Shown in pieces: positions 11,141-20,216 of a stretch of 21,024 nt of DNA. The stretch covers positions 1 to 21,024 of the IMG/VR virus record IMGVR_UViG_3300017922_000017; one strand, given 5' to 3'. The notes under the pieces were generated by a model, which saw only the letters and a program-made list of their open reading frames with translations, did no database searches and was not told where the DNA came from. Each line of letters starts with the position of its first letter. The first letter of the stretch is position 1. Position numbers and translations under genes: made by a program. This DNA comes from a virus.

Positions 11141-11416
11141 TTATTCTTGCCCGGTCATGGCTTTAATCAGGTCGTCGCAGTAGCCCTCTTGCTCGCCCTG
11201 CTTCGTCCCGGGAGTCTGCTTTTCCAGGGCTTCGATGCGTTCCGTGAGCGGCTTGGTGGCGTCTTGTACCGCTTTGGTGACGGCTTCAGCGGTCAGTGGT
11301 TCCGGGCTTTGGCTTTGGTCGGTGTCGCCTGTATTGGCCTTTTCAAGCACGTCCAGCCGGTCAGTCAGGGGCTTGGTGGCTTCGGCAACAGCTTTCTTCA
11401 CGTCTTCGTAGGTCAT
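11141..11416 (-). CDS. Nested scaffold protein from internal start (lambda Nu3-like arrangement)
   Basis: An in-frame ATG at 11416, inside the protease gene, has AAGGAG nine bases upstream, so a separate 91-residue protein identical to the protease C-terminus is likely made. It is helical, with two copies of a 25-residue unit (residues 6-30 and 46-70; KAVxxATKPLTxRLxxLEK). It ends with LIKAMTGQE. Lambda makes Nu3 scaffold from an internal start in gene C in the same way. Role as scaffold for the capsid protein is inferred from location and composition. A short coiled coil of this type is normal. It is not known whether both products are made. Confidence 0.65.
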   Translation of the reverse strand: MTYEDVKKAVAEATKPLTDRLDVLEKANTGDTDQSQSPEPLTAEAVTKAVQDATKPLTERIEALEKQTPGTKQGEQEGYCDDLIKAMTGQE

Positions 11417-12160
11417 CTCTTCATTCTCCTTACCTTTTAAGCGATTGAAAAACTTGGCGAAAAAACCCTTTTCCGATTTTTGTTGCTTGGAAAAGCTCGC
11501 CAGCATTGCGGCTTTAAATTGGTCCAGTGTGTCGGAAATTGCGGTTTGCTTGTCGGTTACGTCCTCGTCGGACAAGATTGATTCAATGGCCCGCCGCAGA
11601 GCCCAAAAAAGGCCGTCGGCATTTTCCGAAGCGTTTGCGGTGTCAAAGTCAAAGGCTTTTCGCGCTCCGTCCGCTCCGTCCGTTTGAATAAAGGTCGCGC
11701 TTCCGGCCATGCTCAAGCCCTGAATTTCGCCCTTCTTGACCGCTCCCCAGGTTTCATCGTTGTCGATTTTGATTGCGACCACCCACGTCCCGGCTTTCTC
11801 GTCGGGGAACATGGGGTCTTGCCCGCGCAAGATAAAGCTCTCGGCAACGTGCGCCCCTTCTTGCGGGCGAAAGTCGTGGTCTTTATCCACGTTCCGCACG
11901 AAAGCGTTTGCCAGAAAGTCGTGCGCGGCTTTCTCAATGTCCTCAGCCGAGGCCCAATCCCCGTGCGCGTCTTCGTCGTCCGGCGCGTAAACCACGCCGT
12001 ACAGAAGGCGTTTGTCTTCGTCGGTCTTAATGAGGCGCAAAAAATCCTCTTTGTCCGACTTGGCCGGGGCGTCTGCGCTTTTCCAGACAACGGTTCGCTT
12101 GTTTGCTCCCTTGGGGACCAGGGAAAGGAAGTTGATTTTCAAATCGGTCAGTTGCGGCAT
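11141..12160 (-). CDS. XkdF-like prohead serine protease fused to a scaffold domain
   Basis: A 339-residue protein. Residues about 1-165 resemble the XkdF-like protease domain (Peptidase_S78_2): LLYGVVYAPDDEDAHGDW, then His95 in DKDHDF and Ser108 in HVAESF, with the GTWVVAIKI and EIQGLSMAG strands. The catalytic His and Ser sit where expected for prohead maturation proteases. Residues about 170-240 are linker helices with FFAKFFNRLKGK. The C-terminal 91 residues are a coiled-coil scaffold (see the 11141-11416 entry). I chose ATG 12160 because the leader has a purine-rich GGGGGAA site, and residues from the earlier possible start look non-coding. Protease-plus-scaffold fusion is common; it directs capsid assembly and is then removed by the protease. 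Confidence 0.82.
   Translation of the reverse strand: MPQLTDLKINFLSLVPKGANKRTVVWKSADAPAKSDKEDFLRLIKTDEDKRLLYGVVYAPDDEDAHGDWASAEDIEKAAHDFLANAFVRNVDKDHDFRPQEGAHVAESFILRGQDPMFPDEKAGTWVVAIKIDNDETWGAVKKGEIQGLSMAGSATFIQTDGADGARKAFDFDTANASENADGLFWALRRAIESILSDEDVTDKQTAISDTLDQFKAAMLASFSKQQKSEKGFFAKFFNRLKGKENEEMTYEDVKKAVAEATKPLTDRLDVLEKANTGDTDQSQSPEPLTAEAVTKAVQDATKPLTERIEALEKQTPGTKQGEQEGYCDDLIKAMTGQE
11207..11281 (-). repeat. Scaffold helix repeat, copy 2
   Basis: Second of two 75-base direct repeats coding for a 25-residue helix (VTKAVQDATKPLTERIEALEKQ...). Copy 1 is 45 bases upstream in the reading direction, at 11327-11401. The protein copies match at most positions; the DNA copies differ at several, so the duplication is not recent. 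Confidence 0.8.
11327..11401 (-). repeat. Scaffold helix repeat, copy 1
   Basis: First of two 75-base direct repeats coding for a 25-residue helix (VKKAVAEATKPLTDRLDVLEKA...). Both contain the core ATKPLT followed by an amphipathic helix. The linker between the copies is Asp/Ser/Pro-rich. Confidence 0.8.
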
Positions 12161-12317
12161 CGGTGTTCCCCCTTGATTTGTTGCCCAAATGGGATACAAA
12201 GACAAAGCATTTGTCCACCTTGAGTTGTACGGACACACCCAAAACTGTACCTTTTTGTCTGTAAGGCGTACTCAAAGTTGCTAGTGTCCGGTGAAAAGCA
12301 AACCGGAGGTAGAAAAT
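12161..12317. promoter_or_regulatory. Divergent intergenic region between protease and portal genes
   Basis: The only sizable divergent gap in the window, 157 bp between the leftward protease ATG (12160) and the rightward portal ATG (12318). It is visibly A/T-richer than the genes and should hold the start point of the rightward portal transcript, as no promoter is visible elsewhere for it. It may also hold one for leftward transcription. I did not find a strong consensus -35/-10 pair on either strand; weak candidates such as TTGTCT at 12255 with TTGCTA at 12278 are near chance level. The core GTAC occurs three times at exact 20-bp spacing (12227, 12247, 12267). Just before the portal ATG lies GGAGGT. 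Confidence 0.5.
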
Positions 12318-13601
12318 ATGGCAAGTGAAGCGTTTGGCGGGGCGAAAACCGTTTTTGTTGCGAAAGTAAGTCCATTGCGGAAAGAGTCTGTGCAAATCGA
12401 ACAAGACGACGTTGGAGACATTATTTCTCCGCCGCAGAACGACGAATACGGCGACGTGCGCGAGTATTGTCTTGGACTGCAAGGGGTGAACTCGTACCAT
12501 GACCTTGCTGTTCAAACCAAAAAGGCTTGCACGGTAGGGCTCGGGATTGACCTGTTGGAGACGGACGGCTCAGAAGAGGCCGTCATGGACAGGCTTTCGG
12601 AAGTCAACGAATACGGGCAGAGCTTTTTTGACGTTGCGGCCCAGGCCGGGGAAGACTTCTTTGCTGGCGGGGCCGGGGCTTTGGAAGTGGTGCGGGACCG
12701 TCGAGGCCGCGCCGCTGAGTTGTATTACATGCGGTCCCAGGACGTGCATTTCCGGCCCCGTGGCTCAAGAACCCCTTTCTACTACATGGAAGAAGGTATT
12801 TTGACGCCGTGGGCGCGGTTCAAGGCCGGGGAACGCGACGAAAACAGCATCCTGTACGTTCCTCTGTTGACCAACAAATCGCGCCTGTACGGTATCCCGG
12901 ACTGGCTCGGTGCAATCCCGGACATTGAACTGGACTACTACGCCGTGCGCTACAATCAACGGTTCTTCCTGAACTCCGGGGTCCCGGATTTGGCTATCGT
13001 GGTCGAAGGCGGGGAACTTGGAGAGGAAGGCGAAAAGGCCGTGCAGGAGTTCTTGCGGAGCAATTTCAAGGGCGTGGACAACGCGCACCGGGTCTTATAC
13101 CTGCCAATCCCCGGCGAAGACGTGACCGTCAAGTTCGAGAAATTGGCGTCGCAGTTGAAAGACCAGGATATGAGCTTTGAAAAGCTGCGGATGCAGTGCC
13201 GGGATAACATTCTATCTTCTCACCGAATCCACCCCCGCGTTGCAGGTGTCGTACAGTCCGGGCAGTTGGGCGGGTCCGGCGAAGTGTACGGGCAGTTGCA
13301 AATGTTCCAGGAAACGACCGTCGCCCCGTATCAGCGGCTTTGGGAGGCCAAATTGCGCCCCGTGTTGGCCGACTTCGGCGTCAAGGACTTCCGGCTCCGC
13401 TCTCTGGACCCGAACGTGACGGAGAAGCCGTCCGAAGCCCTGCCCAAATATGTTCAGGCCGGGATACTCGACGCGGAAGAAGCGCGGGAAGAACTTGGCT
13501 ACGCCCGGAGGGAAGAAGACCCCGAGGAACGGACAGAAAAGGGCCTCATTCGGTCGCTTGAGGCGTTCCGTAAGGCAAACACCGGGGAGGGTGGCGCATG
13601 A
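12318..13601 (+). CDS. Portal protein (PBSX/XkdE-like family)
   Basis: A 427-residue portal protein, the dodecameric ring through which DNA enters the head. The recognisable parts are the N-terminal clip/stem region (GDVREYCLGLQGVNSYHDLAVQTKKACTVGLG), the family-typical AGEDFFAGGAGALEVVRDRRG, the conserved LYGIPDWLGAIPDIELDYYAVRYNQRFFLNSGVPDL, the helix RMQCRDNILSSHRIHPRVAGV, and a C-terminal QMFQETTVAPYQRLWEAKL. It starts at ATG 12318 (GGAGGT eight bases upstream); a GTG at 12291 in frame lacks a site. It is on the plus strand while almost everything else is minus, so it has been inverted or has its own transcription. Its stop overlaps the next start (ATGA). Confidence 0.93.
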   Translation: MASEAFGGAKTVFVAKVSPLRKESVQIEQDDVGDIISPPQNDEYGDVREYCLGLQGVNSYHDLAVQTKKACTVGLGIDLLETDGSEEAVMDRLSEVNEYGQSFFDVAAQAGEDFFAGGAGALEVVRDRRGRAAELYYMRSQDVHFRPRGSRTPFYYMEEGILTPWARFKAGERDENSILYVPLLTNKSRLYGIPDWLGAIPDIELDYYAVRYNQRFFLNSGVPDLAIVVEGGELGEEGEKAVQEFLRSNFKGVDNAHRVLYLPIPGEDVTVKFEKLASQLKDQDMSFEKLRMQCRDNILSSHRIHPRVAGVVQSGQLGGSGEVYGQLQMFQETTVAPYQRLWEAKLRPVLADFGVKDFRLRSLDPNVTEKPSEALPKYVQAGILDAEEAREELGYARREEDPEERTEKGLIRSLEAFRKANTGEGGA

Positions 13602-14089
13602 GCCTGGAAAGCCAAATTGCGCTTCAGGTGGCGGAAAAAATCAGAGACGCGGCCACCAAACAGGGGCGCATACCGTTCAAGACCGGGGACCTGAGGAAGT
13701 CCATCCAGGCCAGCCTTGTCCGTCAAGGCGTCGCCACAGTCGGGTCAAACCTGTCCTATGCCCGTGCGGTCCACGACGGACGCGGCCCGGTCACAATCCG
13801 GCCCAATATCGACAAGAACCCGCCACGCGGGGAGCGCAAAAAATACCACAGCAAGGCGTGGTATCAGCAACACCCCGAACGAGCGCGACTCAAGTTCAAA
13901 ATCGGGAACCGTGTCGTGTATGCAAAGGAAGTGCGGCAACCGGCTCGGAAAGGTCAGCCGTTTCTTACAGAAGGGTTGCGAGAAGTGCAGAGAGAGGGAT
14001 TTGAATTTCTCTATCCATTACTGCGGGATAACCTGAATAAAAAGATTGCGCGACATATAGTTGATACGATAAAGATTGACTTGCTCTGA
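13598..14089 (+). CDS. HK97 gp10-like head-tail connector / tail completion protein
   Basis: A 163-residue protein similar to the HK97 gp10 family: an N-terminal helix (IALQVAEKIRDAATKQG), an RTGDL-like motif as FKTGDLRKSI, VGSNLSYARAVHDG (equivalent to the usual 'Y---V-fG' segment), the Arg/Pro middle, and the characteristic C-terminal RKGQPFLTEGLREV. These proteins complete the tail or neck and join tube to connector. GGAGGG lies six bases upstream of ATG 13598, and ATGA couples it to the portal. The gene ends with Lys/Ile-rich helices. It is followed by a terminator and then a convergent gene. It normally lies downstream of portal and capsid genes, so the pairing with portal is unusual. 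Confidence 0.8.
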   Translation: MSLESQIALQVAEKIRDAATKQGRIPFKTGDLRKSIQASLVRQGVATVGSNLSYARAVHDGRGPVTIRPNIDKNPPRGERKKYHSKAWYQQHPERARLKFKIGNRVVYAKEVRQPARKGQPFLTEGLREVQREGFEFLYPLLRDNLNKKIARHIVDTIKIDLL

Positions 14090-15369: not shown

Positions 15370-17757
15370 CTACCCCCTCAAAACTTTGGCCCCGGAGACA
15401 ACCTTGCCTTGTCGCTTGGCAAGATACTCCAGGGCTTGTGTTGTCATATCGACTTGATCGTCGTTTTTCGCCGCAGGAAAGCGGCAGAGTTCTTCTAAAT
15501 AGTCGTCCACCCAGGGCGCATCTTCGGGCAGGTAGACATTTCCGGCTTCGACTTGTGGCGACACGGCCCGCGCCCGGACCTCTTTGCTGGCCTTGTTCAC
15601 CTGTTGAGCAATAATTGGGGCCTTGATTTCCCGGTCCCGCTTCAAATCCTGGACCAGAGACTTCCCGGAAGCCATGTATTCCACAAGGATAGCATCGGGT
15701 TGCCATTTTTTGTACTCCCGGATAACCGCCCGCTTCAAGTCCGGATATTCCAGGCGTTTACGGCATACATCGCGCAAAAAGTAACCCACCCCATACTCGT
15801 CCCAGGTCCCGCCCACGGTCCAGTCTGCAGAGTCGTTGTCTTCGTAGGCCGTGTCCCATGACTGGATTCGGAGTTTACGCTTCCGTGGTAGCTCCCGATA
15901 AAACTGCCACCAATTCCAATGAAAGATTCCGCCTTCCTCAGACACAGGCCGTTGTTGGTACAGGCTGTTCCACCAAAAGGTGCCCAGGTCCGACTTGGTG
16001 TCCGTGAGCCATTTCAGGTTGTAGCGTTCCGGCCACAGGGCTTCGCCGCGCTCCCGGCCCAAAAGGTCATCGTCTTCCGCAATGGCCGGGAAGTTGACTT
16101 CCTCAAACGGTTCAATCTCTCCGCGCCGGGACAGGTCCAAAAGCCGCCCGGCAAGATCGTCCTCGTGCCAGCGCGTCATAATAATTATTATAGCCCCGCC
16201 GGGTTGAAGCCGGGTCTTGGCCGTGGCCCGGTACCAGTTCCATGTCTTTTCCCGGTACGTCGGGGACATAGCTTCCTGGTCGTTCTTCACCGGGTCGTCG
16301 ATAAGGAATACGTCGGCCCCTTTACCCGTGACACCGCCGCCGACGCCCACGGACCACATATAGCCGCCCTGGTCCGTGCGCCAGAACTGGCCGGAGCGCG
16401 TGTTGGGGTCCACATCGACACCAAAGACAGTCGGCCCCCATTCTTTCAGCGTGTCGCGGGCTTGTTTGCCCCAGGTCTGCGCGTAAGACGACTCGTAACT
16501 TCCCAGAATAACCTTTTTTTTGGGAAAATTGCCCAAGAACCACGATGGGAAATATCTTGACGTGAACTCGCTGTTGTGAGTTGGAACAAGGTGTTCCCCG
16601 ACAAGGTAAAGCCCATCCTCTCGAGCAACCTGTATGCACTTACCGGCCTCCGGGCGTGCCTCCCGTATTGCCTTAACACCCCGTCGCCACCGTAAGCTGT
16701 TTGACGTGCTAAGTCGTTTTCTTTCAAGTCGTGTTGGGATTGTAAGGTCCGCTGAAAACGTAAGCTGGTAAACTGTTTTTTTGCCGTTAATACCAGAGCT
16801 TGACACAGTTGGAGCATAAGACGCGATTGTTGCCCTCCACCCAAGAGACCTTACGAGCTTCGCTGTATCTTGTACCAACCTATGGTTGACGTTTGAAAAG
16901 CAATACCTTTTTGTCTTTTTGTGAACGTATCCGTCAGTGTCTATAAGGCCAGCTAAAAGCTCAAGCCTTTGCTTTACGGAGGAAACGAGGTACGCGCTTG
17001 GAATATGCTTGTTGTTCCACAGACCAAGACTTTCAAGCCCGTGTTTCATTGTTTGAGTAAAATACGTCGTCAATACGCCGGTGTTTTTGTGTTCGCAGAC
17101 AGCGGATATCCTTTGCCCGTGCTTCACCAAGCTATCAATGACCTGTTTATCTTTGGGCGAATGCGTGATGCACGGCTTGCTCGAAGACCCATCCCCAAGC
17201 CAAGCCCCAAGAATGTACGGGTCCAAAGGCAAAAGAGCCTCTTTTCCTTCAATCCGTGGCGTTTCGGGGACTTGCAAGACAGCCCTTTTTTTCTTGCCCC
17301 CTGAAAACAAGGTCCTCTTTGCCATTTCGTGCGTTTCCATCGTGCGCCATGCGCCCCTTGAACGGTCGTAAACAACCCATTCATGGCGCGGATGCACCTT
17401 TACAGTCGCACCGTCCGTGAACTCGACTTCAAGCGTCGCAAGGTCCGCCGGGGATTCCCCAACAACCATTGCCGCTTTTCCGTCCGGGCCATACACGAAA
17501 TCCCCAGGGTGAAGCTCGCCATGCGTTGTCCACCCAGAAGGGGCCAAGACAGGCGTGCTGTCAGCTACAAGCTTCCCGTGTTGTGGAGGCATCGAAATAA
17601 TAAGACGCTGGCACTGCCCCCGTGCGACTTCCAGCAATTTATCGTTCAACGCCGCCAGGTGTCGCGGGAAGACCCAGGCCCCATTACTCGTCAGGTGTGC
17701 CCACCACGCCGGGGTAGCTTGAGCCAGGAGCAATGGATTCGAGCAGTTCATTGGCAA
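15370..17757 (-). CDS. Terminase large subunit (TerL) precursor with intein
   Basis: A 795-residue precursor; the mature TerL would be 462 residues after removal of the intein (residues 63-395). It is the packaging motor. The Walker A loop MPPQHGK-(intein)-SEFTS is rebuilt on splicing. Walker B is DVFLIDD (482-488), followed by a TRWHEDDLAG coupling segment (about 528-537). The C-terminal nuclease has Asp635 (SWDTAYED), Glu693 (LVEY) and Asp767/Asp770 in NDDQVD. This C-terminus resembles the TIGR01630-type phage terminase. The start is TTG at 17757 because GGAGG lies nine bases upstream; ATG at 17751 is 15 bases from it. It overlaps the TerS gene by 74 bp. DNA packaging should be impossible until the intein is removed. 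Confidence 0.92.
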   Translation of the reverse strand: MPMNCSNPLLLAQATPAWWAHLTSNGAWVFPRHLAALNDKLLEVARGQCQRLIISMPPQHGKLVADSTPVLAPSGWTTHGELHPGDFVYGPDGKAAMVVGESPADLATLEVEFTDGATVKVHPRHEWVVYDRSRGAWRTMETHEMAKRTLFSGGKKKRAVLQVPETPRIEGKEALLPLDPYILGAWLGDGSSSKPCITHSPKDKQVIDSLVKHGQRISAVCEHKNTGVLTTYFTQTMKHGLESLGLWNNKHIPSAYLVSSVKQRLELLAGLIDTDGYVHKKTKRYCFSNVNHRLVQDTAKLVRSLGWRATIASYAPTVSSSGINGKKTVYQLTFSADLTIPTRLERKRLSTSNSLRWRRGVKAIREARPEAGKCIQVAREDGLYLVGEHLVPTHNSEFTSRYFPSWFLGNFPKKKVILGSYESSYAQTWGKQARDTLKEWGPTVFGVDVDPNTRSGQFWRTDQGGYMWSVGVGGGVTGKGADVFLIDDPVKNDQEAMSPTYREKTWNWYRATAKTRLQPGGAIIIIMTRWHEDDLAGRLLDLSRRGEIEPFEEVNFPAIAEDDDLLGRERGEALWPERYNLKWLTDTKSDLGTFWWNSLYQQRPVSEEGGIFHWNWWQFYRELPRKRKLRIQSWDTAYEDNDSADWTVGGTWDEYGVGYFLRDVCRKRLEYPDLKRAVIREYKKWQPDAILVEYMASGKSLVQDLKRDREIKAPIIAQQVNKASKEVRARAVSPQVEAGNVYLPEDAPWVDDYLEELCRFPAAKNDDQVDMTTQALEYLAKRQGKVVSGAKVLRG
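16573..17571 (-). other. Class 3-type intein with LAGLIDADG homing endonuclease in TerL Walker A
   Basis: In-frame 999-bp insertion coding for 333 residues between Lys62 and Ser396 of the TerL precursor. It starts LVADSTPVLAPSGW (block A), so residue 1 is Leu, not Cys/Ser/Thr. Block B has HPRHEW with His125 and Trp127. Block F is CIQV with Cys374, and the end is VPTHN followed by Ser396 (Thr393, His394, Asn395). Trp, Cys and Thr at these three places are the WCT signature of class 3 inteins, in which the block F Cys replaces the N-terminal nucleophile. LAGLIDADG endonuclease motifs are YILGAWLGDGS (181-191) and LLAGLIDTDGYV (267-278). GC in two sampled 60-base lines is about 37-42 percent, against about 70 percent in a flanking TerL line, which suggests recent arrival. 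Confidence 0.92.
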
Positions 17758-18340
17758 GGCGCGACGCCTCCGGGTCGTTGGTAATTCGTTGTGCTATGGA
17801 TTTTGTTTCGTCGTCTTTTTCTTTGACTTCATGGGAGTCGGTGTGTTGCCCGTAAGCAAGCCGCTCTATGTCGGTCAAAGCCCTCAAAGCCCGAGGCATG
17901 TCCAAAATGAGCTTCATCAGGTCGGTGTTTGACCCAAACCGAAGCCGGGTCCCCTCTGCTTTGGCTTCTTCCACTCGCTGTTTCAGGTCTTCAATCGGTT
18001 GAAGCAAGGCAACCATCGACTGCGAAGCAATTCGAGCGTGACGCCGCCCCATCTTCTCCATCTCGTCGAGGAAAGCCCCCGATTGCTTTTTGTTTGCCTC
18101 CTGGTCCCAAAACGAAATCCGCTCAAGCCACCGCCACCGCACAGACCAAATGCTGAGTTGGTAGATTGTCTTGTAGCCAAGTCGGCTCCGTGCGTTCTCA
18201 AGGGACCGCTCGGGGCCAAGCTCCAGGTAAGTCCTGAAAGCGTTGTATGCTTTTGACGTTTCGCCAGGAAGCCGTTCTCCAGGGGAGAAGGACCGAACAT
18301 TCACGTCCTCGGGCACTAAGCTGGATTTTTTGCTAGGCAT
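17684..18340 (-). CDS. Terminase small subunit-like (TerS)
   Basis: A 218-residue, strongly charged helical protein directly upstream of TerL. Residues about 30-80 (AFRTYLELGPERSLENARSRLGYKTIYQLSIWSVRWRWLERISFWD) look like a helix-turn-helix DNA-binding segment, as found in TerS proteins that choose the packaging site. A central coiled coil (about 100-130) could oligomerise the ring. The C-terminal part ends in Gly/Ser/Pro (GSSYPGVVGTPDE). It overlaps the TerL coding start by 74 bp, an unusually long overlap that reinforces coupled production. Position and size are typical of TerS; the family itself is very divergent, so the assignment is mostly contextual. Confidence 0.75.
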   Translation of the reverse strand: MPSKKSSLVPEDVNVRSFSPGERLPGETSKAYNAFRTYLELGPERSLENARSRLGYKTIYQLSIWSVRWRWLERISFWDQEANKKQSGAFLDEMEKMGRRHARIASQSMVALLQPIEDLKQRVEEAKAEGTRLRFGSNTDLMKLILDMPRALRALTDIERLAYGQHTDSHEVKEKDDETKSIAQRITNDPEASRLANELLESIAPGSSYPGVVGTPDE

Positions 18341-18834
18341 GGTTCCGTCGCCTCCTTAGTCGCAACGTAGTAGTAAGGCTCCCCGCACAAAGGCCAAAGC
18401 AGGAACCCCGACACGCGGAAAAGGGCCCTGATCAATCGGGGTTTTGCAACGCCGACGTTCTCCCGGTACGCGGCCTTGCCGTGGACGGCATACGCGGAAG
18501 CGGACCCTGACAGAAAAGGGCGGTTGTACCCGACAACAAAAACCGGCCCAGGGTGCAAAGCAATGTCCAAGATTGCTCGCCAGGGCAGGTAGTTAATTGC
18601 GAACAGGGAAAGAACCCCGTGCGCCGGGTCCACAAGGTACGAAGCATCGCCGCAAACGAACTTTCTGCCGGGGAACTTTGCGCGGCAACGGGCCACCATG
18701 TCTTTGTCAATGTCTACGCCGACATAGCCCCGGCACGAAGGACAAAAAGAAGCCCCAAGCCCTGTCCCGCACCCCAGGTCAACCCATGAAGAAGCCTGGA
18801 ACGCCACGGAACGGAAAGTCCGCCGGATTTCCAT
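18316..18834 (-). CDS. Class I SAM-dependent methyltransferase
   Basis: A 172-residue protein with the SAM-binding motif I, WVDLGCGTGLG, then YVGVDID (acidic residue after strand 2) and FVCGDAS. These are the usual class I Rossmann methyltransferase motifs. There is no NPPY/DPPY target-base motif (a NYLPW is in the corresponding place), so a DNA adenine/cytosine N-methyltransferase is not supported; the substrate is unknown. Cys62 and Cys65 in the CPSC segment are extra. ATG 18834 is a best guess: no good ribosome site is visible, and the reading frame is open further upstream. It overlaps the end of the PP-loop gene by about 56 bp and the TerS start by 25 bp. Confidence 0.75.
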   Translation of the reverse strand: MEIRRTFRSVAFQASSWVDLGCGTGLGASFCPSCRGYVGVDIDKDMVARCRAKFPGRKFVCGDASYLVDPAHGVLSLFAINYLPWRAILDIALHPGPVFVVGYNRPFLSGSASAYAVHGKAAYRENVGVAKPRLIRALFRVSGFLLWPLCGEPYYYVATKEATEPCLAKNPA

Positions 18835-19516
18835 GTTCTGGAACGCCGTGCCTGTACTGCTGGTCGTACACTTCGTTGTATTGCCACCCGTGTTCATGTA
18901 TGGCCTTCCAAATGTCAGAATACGACCAGTCATAAAGCGGGTAAAAAGTATAATGGTTCTTGGCCTTGAGCTTTTTGCCCCATGTCACCCACTTGTACGT
19001 TCGCGCCCCTGTCAGTCCTGCTCGTCGCGTTGGGGATTCCTCACACCGGACGCCGCCAAGCATTGCAAAAGGCTCTTTGGGGAACAGGTGGGCCGGATAA
19101 TAAGAAAACATTTCTTTTATCCGTGTTGTCCCGAAGTTGTTTTCTTTGATTGAAACGGGGTCTTTGTCTCGAAGCCATTCAGCCCCTTCCTCCCAACACC
19201 CAATCCAATCTTTTTCGTGTGAAGTGGCGTTGAAAATGAAGATAGGACATTGCAACCAGTGTGGTTCAACGTCGTCCCGGTACATAACGCTTTTGATTAC
19301 GTCTATTGTCTGCGTGAACTCCGCTTCCTGGTCTATGAAAAGAACAGGCAACGGGGTCCGGCCCATCTCTTTTGCAACCTCTAGCGCAAGGTGAAACGTG
19401 ACCGTGCTGTCTTTGCCGCCAGAATGGGCAACAAAGACGTTCCCGAACTCCCCAAAGACAAAGCGGATTCGTTCCTTTGCCGCCTCCAAGACGTTCTCGT
19501 CCTTAAAGTAGCGCAT
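18779..19516 (-). CDS. PAPS reductase / IbrA-like PP-loop ATP pyrophosphatase family protein
   Basis: A 245-residue protein with the PP-loop HSGGKDST (residues 31-38), a GVRCEESPTRR motif (about 155-165) and YPLYDWSYSDIWKAIHEHG (about 192-210). These are the marks of the PAPS-reductase/IbrA/DndC-like adenylating family. The likely chemistry is activation with ATP by pyrophosphate release; whether it acts on sulfate, a nucleic acid or another substrate is unknown. There is no CxxC-type sulfur-donor pattern typical of sulfate reduction. ATG 19516 has AAGGA nearby; an earlier in-frame start is poor. GC in two sampled 60-base lines is about 40-43 percent, far below neighbours, pointing to horizontal acquisition. 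The C-terminus after YRHG looks abbreviated compared with relatives. Confidence 0.8.
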   Translation of the reverse strand: MRYFKDENVLEAAKERIRFVFGEFGNVFVAHSGGKDSTVTFHLALEVAKEMGRTPLPVLFIDQEAEFTQTIDVIKSVMYRDDVEPHWLQCPIFIFNATSHEKDWIGCWEEGAEWLRDKDPVSIKENNFGTTRIKEMFSYYPAHLFPKEPFAMLGGVRCEESPTRRAGLTGARTYKWVTWGKKLKAKNHYTFYPLYDWSYSDIWKAIHEHGWQYNEVYDQQYRHGVPEHGNPADFPFRGVPGFFMG

Positions 19517-19581
19517 TCGCCTTTTCCTTCTGTCTGTTTCTTGTCTCTCTTGGTGGCCGGACAACGGTCAGCTTTGTTGCA

Positions 19582-19710
19582 TTAACGGATAATATGCCCC
19601 CGGCCAGTGGCCTTGCTTTCTCTTGTGAAAACCCCTTGGAGTTCCCACACGGCCCCGCTGTTTGTTTCTTCAATGTATTTCCCGACAACCCAAGCATCTA
19701 CGCCTTCCAT
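19582..19710 (-). CDS. Small protein, 42 residues, possibly frameshifted
   Basis: ATG 19710 has AAGGAG seven bases upstream, so it is very likely translated. The product reads MEGVDAWVVGKYIEETNSGAVW then a GVFTRESKA segment, a compact strand-turn-helix beginning. It resembles small phage proteins I remember with a 'W---GVF--E-KA' centre, but no family is assigned. It overlaps the dCTP deaminase end by 13 bp. The frame ends early at 19582, whereas a different frame stays open to 19503, which would overlap the next start like other junctions here. A run of five C at 19597-19601 (plus strand) is the natural place for a one-base change or a slip. Confidence 0.6.
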   Translation of the reverse strand: MEGVDAWVVGKYIEETNSGAVWELQGVFTRESKATGRGHIIR

Positions 19711-20216
19711 GCCTTCGCTCCTTCCGTTTGTTTTTGCCGCTGATACCGGCCACAGTAGCCTTGCTGGCACCCACCGACCTCAAAGAACACCAGTTGCGCG
19801 ACACGGGTTCCAACAGGGATTGAAAGCGTCTGTGGGCCGTGGTTGCAGATTTCAAGCGTGACGTGGCCGGTAAAGCCAGGGTCGAGCCAGCCGGCGGTGA
19901 CATGGACCGCAAGGCCAAGCCGCCCCATTGTCGAACGCCCGTCCACTTGCGCGGCCAGGGACCGGGGCAGGTTCACGCGCTCAAACGTAGACGCCAGGGC
20001 GAATTGCCCAGGGCGCAAGACAAGCTCGTCCCCGTCCACGGTGCTGTATTCCGGGGTTGTTGTCCCTGGACAGACAACCTGTCCCGGACACGGGAAAAGA
20101 AAAGGACCCGCCAAGGCCACGTCGTAGCTGGCGGGTTGCAAGGACTGCGGTGAATACGGCTCGACAAGCGCGGTGCATTTTGCGCGGGCTTTGATTTCTG
20201 AGTCTCCTAAAATCAC
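19698..20216 (-). CDS. dcd: dCTP deaminase (Dcd)
   Basis: A 172-residue trimeric-type dCTP deaminase/dUTPase-fold enzyme: PASYDVAL in place of the usual PASLDLRLG, DGRSTMGRLGL (93-102), HVTAGWLDPGFTGHVTLEICN (105-125) with the catalytic Glu122, and the C-terminal QLVFFEV and GRYQRQ. It converts dCTP to dUTP, which feeds dTTP synthesis, and phages use it to shift nucleotide pools toward replication. Length is normal (E. coli Dcd is 193). The start is GTG 20216 behind AGGGGG. It is G/C-rich like the structural genes. No partner dUTPase or thymidylate synthase is visible in the window. Confidence 0.9.
   Translation of the reverse strand: MILGDSEIKARAKCTALVEPYSPQSLQPASYDVALAGPFLFPCPGQVVCPGTTTPEYSTVDGDELVLRPGQFALASTFERVNLPRSLAAQVDGRSTMGRLGLAVHVTAGWLDPGFTGHVTLEICNHGPQTLSIPVGTRVAQLVFFEVGGCQQGYCGRYQRQKQTEGAKAWKA

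Follow-up and report, generated by a model that had tools for sequence, protein, structure and literature searches.

An endonuclease-bearing intein with class 3 residues in the Walker A loop of an uncultivated phage terminase

The 21 kb IMG/VR virus record IMGVR_UViG_3300017922_000017 (the window, 21,024 nucleotides) carries a gene for the terminase large subunit (TerL) in which 333 codons separate the two parts of the Walker A loop. What is this insertion, how could a working packaging ATPase be made from such a gene, and does the arrangement place packaging under the control of splicing? TerL is essential in tailed phages. The evidence points, with very little doubt, to a class 3 intein of full length that carries a LAGLIDADG endonuclease and lies between Lys62 and Ser+1 in the Walker A motif of a tailed-phage TerL; it would splice by the Cys F:4 route and home at the GK/S site.

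The terminase gene and the inserted element

The gene and its parts are as follows.

17684..18340, minus strand: small terminase subunit gene (TerS), directly upstream of TerL and overlapping it (phrog_6299, E 5.6e-23)
15370..17757, minus strand: TerL precursor open reading frame, 795 aa, TTG start at 17757, stop at 15370; predicted 462 aa once spliced
17572..17757, minus strand: N-extein, aa 1-62, whose last residues form the first part of Walker A
17572..17589, minus strand: first part of Walker A, PPQHGK, aa 57-62, with the catalytic Lys62
16573..17571, minus strand: intein, 333 aa, L1 to N333 (precursor aa 63-395), bounded by Lys62 and Ser396
15373..16572, minus strand: C-extein, aa 396-795, in which Ser+1 (Ser396) completes Walker A, followed by a Walker B-like FLIDDP and an RNase H-like nuclease

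The identity of the host protein is given by PHROG 38, terminase large subunit (E 1.9e-107), by Pfam matches to Terminase_6C (E 5.4e-15) and Terminase_6N (E 1.8e-6), and by its layout, a Walker A/B ATPase followed by an RNase H-like nuclease in a gene adjoining TerS. The precursor frame is uninterrupted by stops along 15370-17757. The same TerL gene is present in a second contig, IMGVR_UViG_3300017923_000008, with 99.7% DNA identity and an intein protein that is 100% identical.

Insertion is at the Lys/Ser junction of Walker A, PPQHGK^S. The N-extein aligns without gaps with intein-free TerLs, which cross the junction uninterrupted (PPRHGKS in phage FP_Brigit, PPRHSKS in Sazerac and B054). Of the intein-free TerLs found, even the nearest has no more than about 42% identity. 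The earlier note had proposed looking for intein-free alleles in related phages; empty sites do occur on distant TerLs, but a search of viral contigs with the TerL C-extein found no closely related phage whose site is empty, returning only the near-identical intein-bearing contig and TerLs of at most 35% identity. The insertion site is common to most annotated relatives, with GK immediately before the intein in 120 of 160 loci drawn from viral and prokaryote collections, and in all 14 annotated relatives the intein ends in THN and is followed by Ser or Thr. Since the features of the intein are conserved in these 14 relatives and 160 loci, they are not due to chance.

The positions assigned earlier from the sequence (16573-17571 for the intein, residues Lys62, Leu63, His125, Trp127, Cys374, Thr393, His394, Asn395 and Ser396, and a 462-residue product) are exact in every case. 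The lower GC content read at that time as a mark of mobility holds in its direction, although the difference is only mild: the intein has 51.5%, the two exteins 58.1% and 56.8%, and at third codon positions the value is 52.6% for the intein and 67.8% for the exteins.

Several other genes of the window can be assigned. The portal gene and the next, neck-like gene (12291-14089) lie on the plus strand, in a head and tail gene order that is otherwise on the minus strand; an assembly error is unlikely because the portal of the second contig also opposes TerL. An XkdF-type head maturation protease (Peptidase_S78_2) is encoded at 11141-12238, and downstream of it are a head decoration protein and then a major capsid protein of the Phage_cap_E family. 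On the other side of the terminase genes are a phage-borne phosphoadenosine phosphosulfate reductase-like gene (18779-19564) and a dCTP deaminase-like gene (19698-20216).

Splicing residues and class assignment

Intein residue 1 is Leu, so that no Cys or Ser nucleophile is available there. The residues that characterise class 3 inteins are all present: His at B:10 (H63), His at G:6 (H332), Asn at G:7 (N333) and Ser+1, together with the Trp, Cys and Thr (W-C-T) set. They were located in two alignments, one of 15 inteins (from phages, from a plasmid and that of the window; 14 of these were realigned separately) and one of 175 inteins comprising the aligned relatives of the window intein.

17383..17385, minus strand: His at B:10 (intein H63, aa 125), 174/175
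17377..17379, minus strand: Trp at B:12 (intein W65, aa 127), 15/15 and 174/175, with one gap
16636..16638, minus strand: Cys at F:4 (intein C312, aa 374), the predicted initiating nucleophile, 172/175 with Ser in the other 3; in register with the block F Cys of 6bs8
16573..16587, minus strand: block G, VPTHN, with Thr G:5 (T331, aa 393), His G:6 (H332) and Asn G:7 (N333)

No variation in W-C-T, His B:10 or THN is seen among the 15 inteins. In the larger alignment the conservation of W, of C and of T is no lower than 98%, with Thr G:5 kept in 173 of 175 inteins and Asn G:7 in all 175. The best sequence matches in the PDB are the mycobacterial class 3 DnaB inteins 6bs8, 6rix and 6riy (E 5e-34 in a profile search), and the Trp and Cys of 6bs8 are in register with those of the window intein. 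Alignment with class 3 inteins thus places Cys374 and Trp127 in the F:4 and B:12 columns, and not outside them.

The Pfam Intein_splicing profile has no match anywhere in the window record. It matched just one of 71 relatives and was dropped as a criterion because it is insensitive to this group of inteins; a search of NCBIfam gave weak matches alone, to other inteins. The B:7 residue is His, as in 43 of the 175 inteins, where Msm DnaBi1 has an aligned Asp. Considered at one point as a diagnostic deviation, it was set aside since no particular residue is conserved at B:7 in class 3 inteins (PMC7891396).

An AlphaFold model of the intein, built with an alignment of 71 sequences as input, has a mean pLDDT of 94.2. 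In Foldseek comparisons the model as a whole matches PI-SceI (TMq about 0.7), and its splicing domain aligns, at a TMt of about 0.8, with class 3 DnaB inteins (E 5e-7 and probability 1.00 to 6riy). The predicted structure thus has a HINT splicing fold. PI-SceI, a class 1 intein whose host is yeast VMA1, has in common with the window intein the overall architecture of splicing domain and LAGLIDADG endonuclease. Alignment, tree and structure together bear out the initial proposal that a class 3 intein containing a LAGLIDADG homing domain interrupts the Walker A motif of TerL.

Membership of class 1 or class 2 has next to no probability. Class 1 is excluded by Leu1. Class 2 inteins likewise have no nucleophile at residue 1, but they are KlbA orthologues with Asp at F:4, Ser at G:6 and Cys+1 (PMC4031507), where the window intein has Cys F:4, His G:6, Ser+1 and the full W-C-T set. 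It is also extremely unlikely that the element is a relic that no longer splices, or only cleaves, leaving TerL split. Pseudogene inteins related to class 3 do exist, such as Arth_1007 (PMC3196547). Here, however, the catalytic residues are all present, the frame is open, the endonuclease motifs are intact, the gene is retained at 99.7% in the second contig and its product is an essential one. Both readings were rejected on these grounds.

Splicing, homing and the control of packaging

The route proposed for a class 3 intein in this position starts after translation, when C312 (F:4), aided by His B:10 and Thr G:5, would attack the Lys62-Leu1 bond and form a branched intermediate at block F. 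The N-extein would then be transferred to Ser+1, Asn333 would cyclise, and an acyl shift would give the 462-residue TerL with its P-loop intact. This sequence of steps (Cys F:4 attack, +1 transfer and Asn cyclisation) is established in relatives (PMC4031507, PMC5222942, PMC7664689). While the anatomy of the element, the places of its residues and how well these are conserved, its predicted fold and its site were obtained directly here, we infer from the intein family the chemical steps, the occurrence of splicing, the endonuclease activity and the inactivity of the unspliced ATPase.

The endonuclease region is well defined.

16747..17223, minus strand: LAGLIDADG homing endonuclease domain (intein about 117-275), PF05204 and PF14528, corresponding to the PI-SceI endonuclease region by profile (E 4.2e-24) and by fold
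17188..17211, minus strand: LAGLIDADG motif 1, LGAWLGDG, Asp conserved 168/175
16930..16956, minus strand: LAGLIDADG motif 2, LAGLIDTDG, Asp conserved 175/175

Both motifs are intact, each with its catalytic Asp, and endonuclease activity has been demonstrated for two mycobacteriophage TerL inteins (PMC5050341). By analogy with this family, and because of the intact motifs, the window intein is probably an active endonuclease which would cut intein-free terL alleles at GK/S, and in this way the element would spread.

Because its Walker A motif is split, unspliced TerL is presumed to have no ATPase activity. It could therefore be imagined that splicing is conditional, for example through oxidation of Cys F:4 as in mycobacterial DnaBi1, and that P-loop formation and DNA packaging are delayed, gated or timed. 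The DnaBi1 intein of M. smegmatis, also inserted in a P-loop, does have a redox-sensitive Cys F:4 nucleophile (PMC6195587). Its redox partner Cys48 has no evident counterpart in the window intein, however, where the other cysteines (134, 159 and 224) are all in the endonuclease region. Furthermore, endonuclease-bearing inteins have been suggested to be constitutive, selfish splicers (PMC7891396), and five TerL inteins spliced quickly in a reporter (PMC5050341). Conditional splicing is thus judged very unlikely, and the idea of packaging controlled by splicing, put forward in the earlier note, finds no support here.

Family placement and relatives with serine at F:4

The preferred class 3 reading places the window intein in a populous family. 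A survey published in 2020 counted 1701 class 3 inteins, 82.5% of them with LAGLIDADG motifs (PMC7891396), and 758 phage records match the window intein, 546 with at least 80% of its length covered; these numbers contradict the earlier view that class 3 inteins are uncommon. A paper of 2016 describes inteins in the P-loop of TerL (PMC5050341). The window intein is an ordinary new example from this large and previously described group of terminase class 3 inteins.

In a tree of 174 inteins it falls inside a supported set of 46 (SH-aLRT 99), most of which share His B:7 and most of which sit in TerL-like Walker A loops. Phages supply some of these inteins, and contigs attributed to Actinomycetota, Pseudomonadota, Cyanobacteriota and archaea supply the others. 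If the near-identical contig is left aside, L029 is closest to the window intein, at 49% identity.

The TerL inteins of Gordonia phages Ali17, Verity and ViaConlectus have the same GK^S site, Leu1, W-C-T, THN and LAGLIDADG domain, with 44.6-44.9% identity across all 333 residues, but they are diverged in sequence and belong to another phage lineage. Those of Porphyromonas phage 005b and Bacteroides phage B124-14 (37% identity) share the site, the motifs and the His B:7 subgroup and differ at residue 1, which is Gln or Glu instead of Leu. The mycobacteriophage inteins TerL1-a and TerL1-b are likewise P-loop insertions in TerL, and the GK^T site was described by Kelly et al. in 2016 (PMC5050341). 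W-C-T is present in the P-loop TerL inteins of mycobacteriophages Optimus and Contagion; in the class 3 tree the mycobacteriophage inteins nevertheless sit on a different branch, and that of Optimus is inserted one residue further, at GKG^S. Msm DnaBi1 (6bs8), itself P-loop-inserted, and MchDnaB1 (6rix, 6riy) share the splicing blocks and W-C-T with the window intein, but are mini-inteins with no endonuclease, with a replicative helicase as host and with Asp at B:7.

The window thus adds one member from an uncultivated phage to the known class 3 terminase inteins, and is of use chiefly for comparison. The subgroup in which it falls is well supported, has HxxHEW in block B and occurs mostly in TerL P-loops; some of its members have Ser in place of the supposedly invariant Cys F:4.

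This substitution (W-S-T) occurs in eleven relatives, corresponding to six distinct TerL-type P-loop inteins (L037, L040, L041, L193, L194 and L235) and the near-copies L189-L192 and L203. All eleven have Thr+1, compared with 49 of the 229 inteins with Cys F:4. A residue-1 nucleophile is absent in L037 (Ala1), L041 (Gln1), L193 and L194 (both Leu1), in which, to judge from their sequences, Ser F:4 may be the first nucleophile. If the W-S-T inteins splice, they might do so by way of oxygen esters. The separation of L037 from L040 and L041 in the tree suggests that Ser at F:4 had more than one origin. According to a review, no class 3 intein lacks Cys F:4 (PMC4031507), and the 2020 survey took this Cys as the definition of the class, so that the inteins with Ser would have escaped that survey (PMC7891396).
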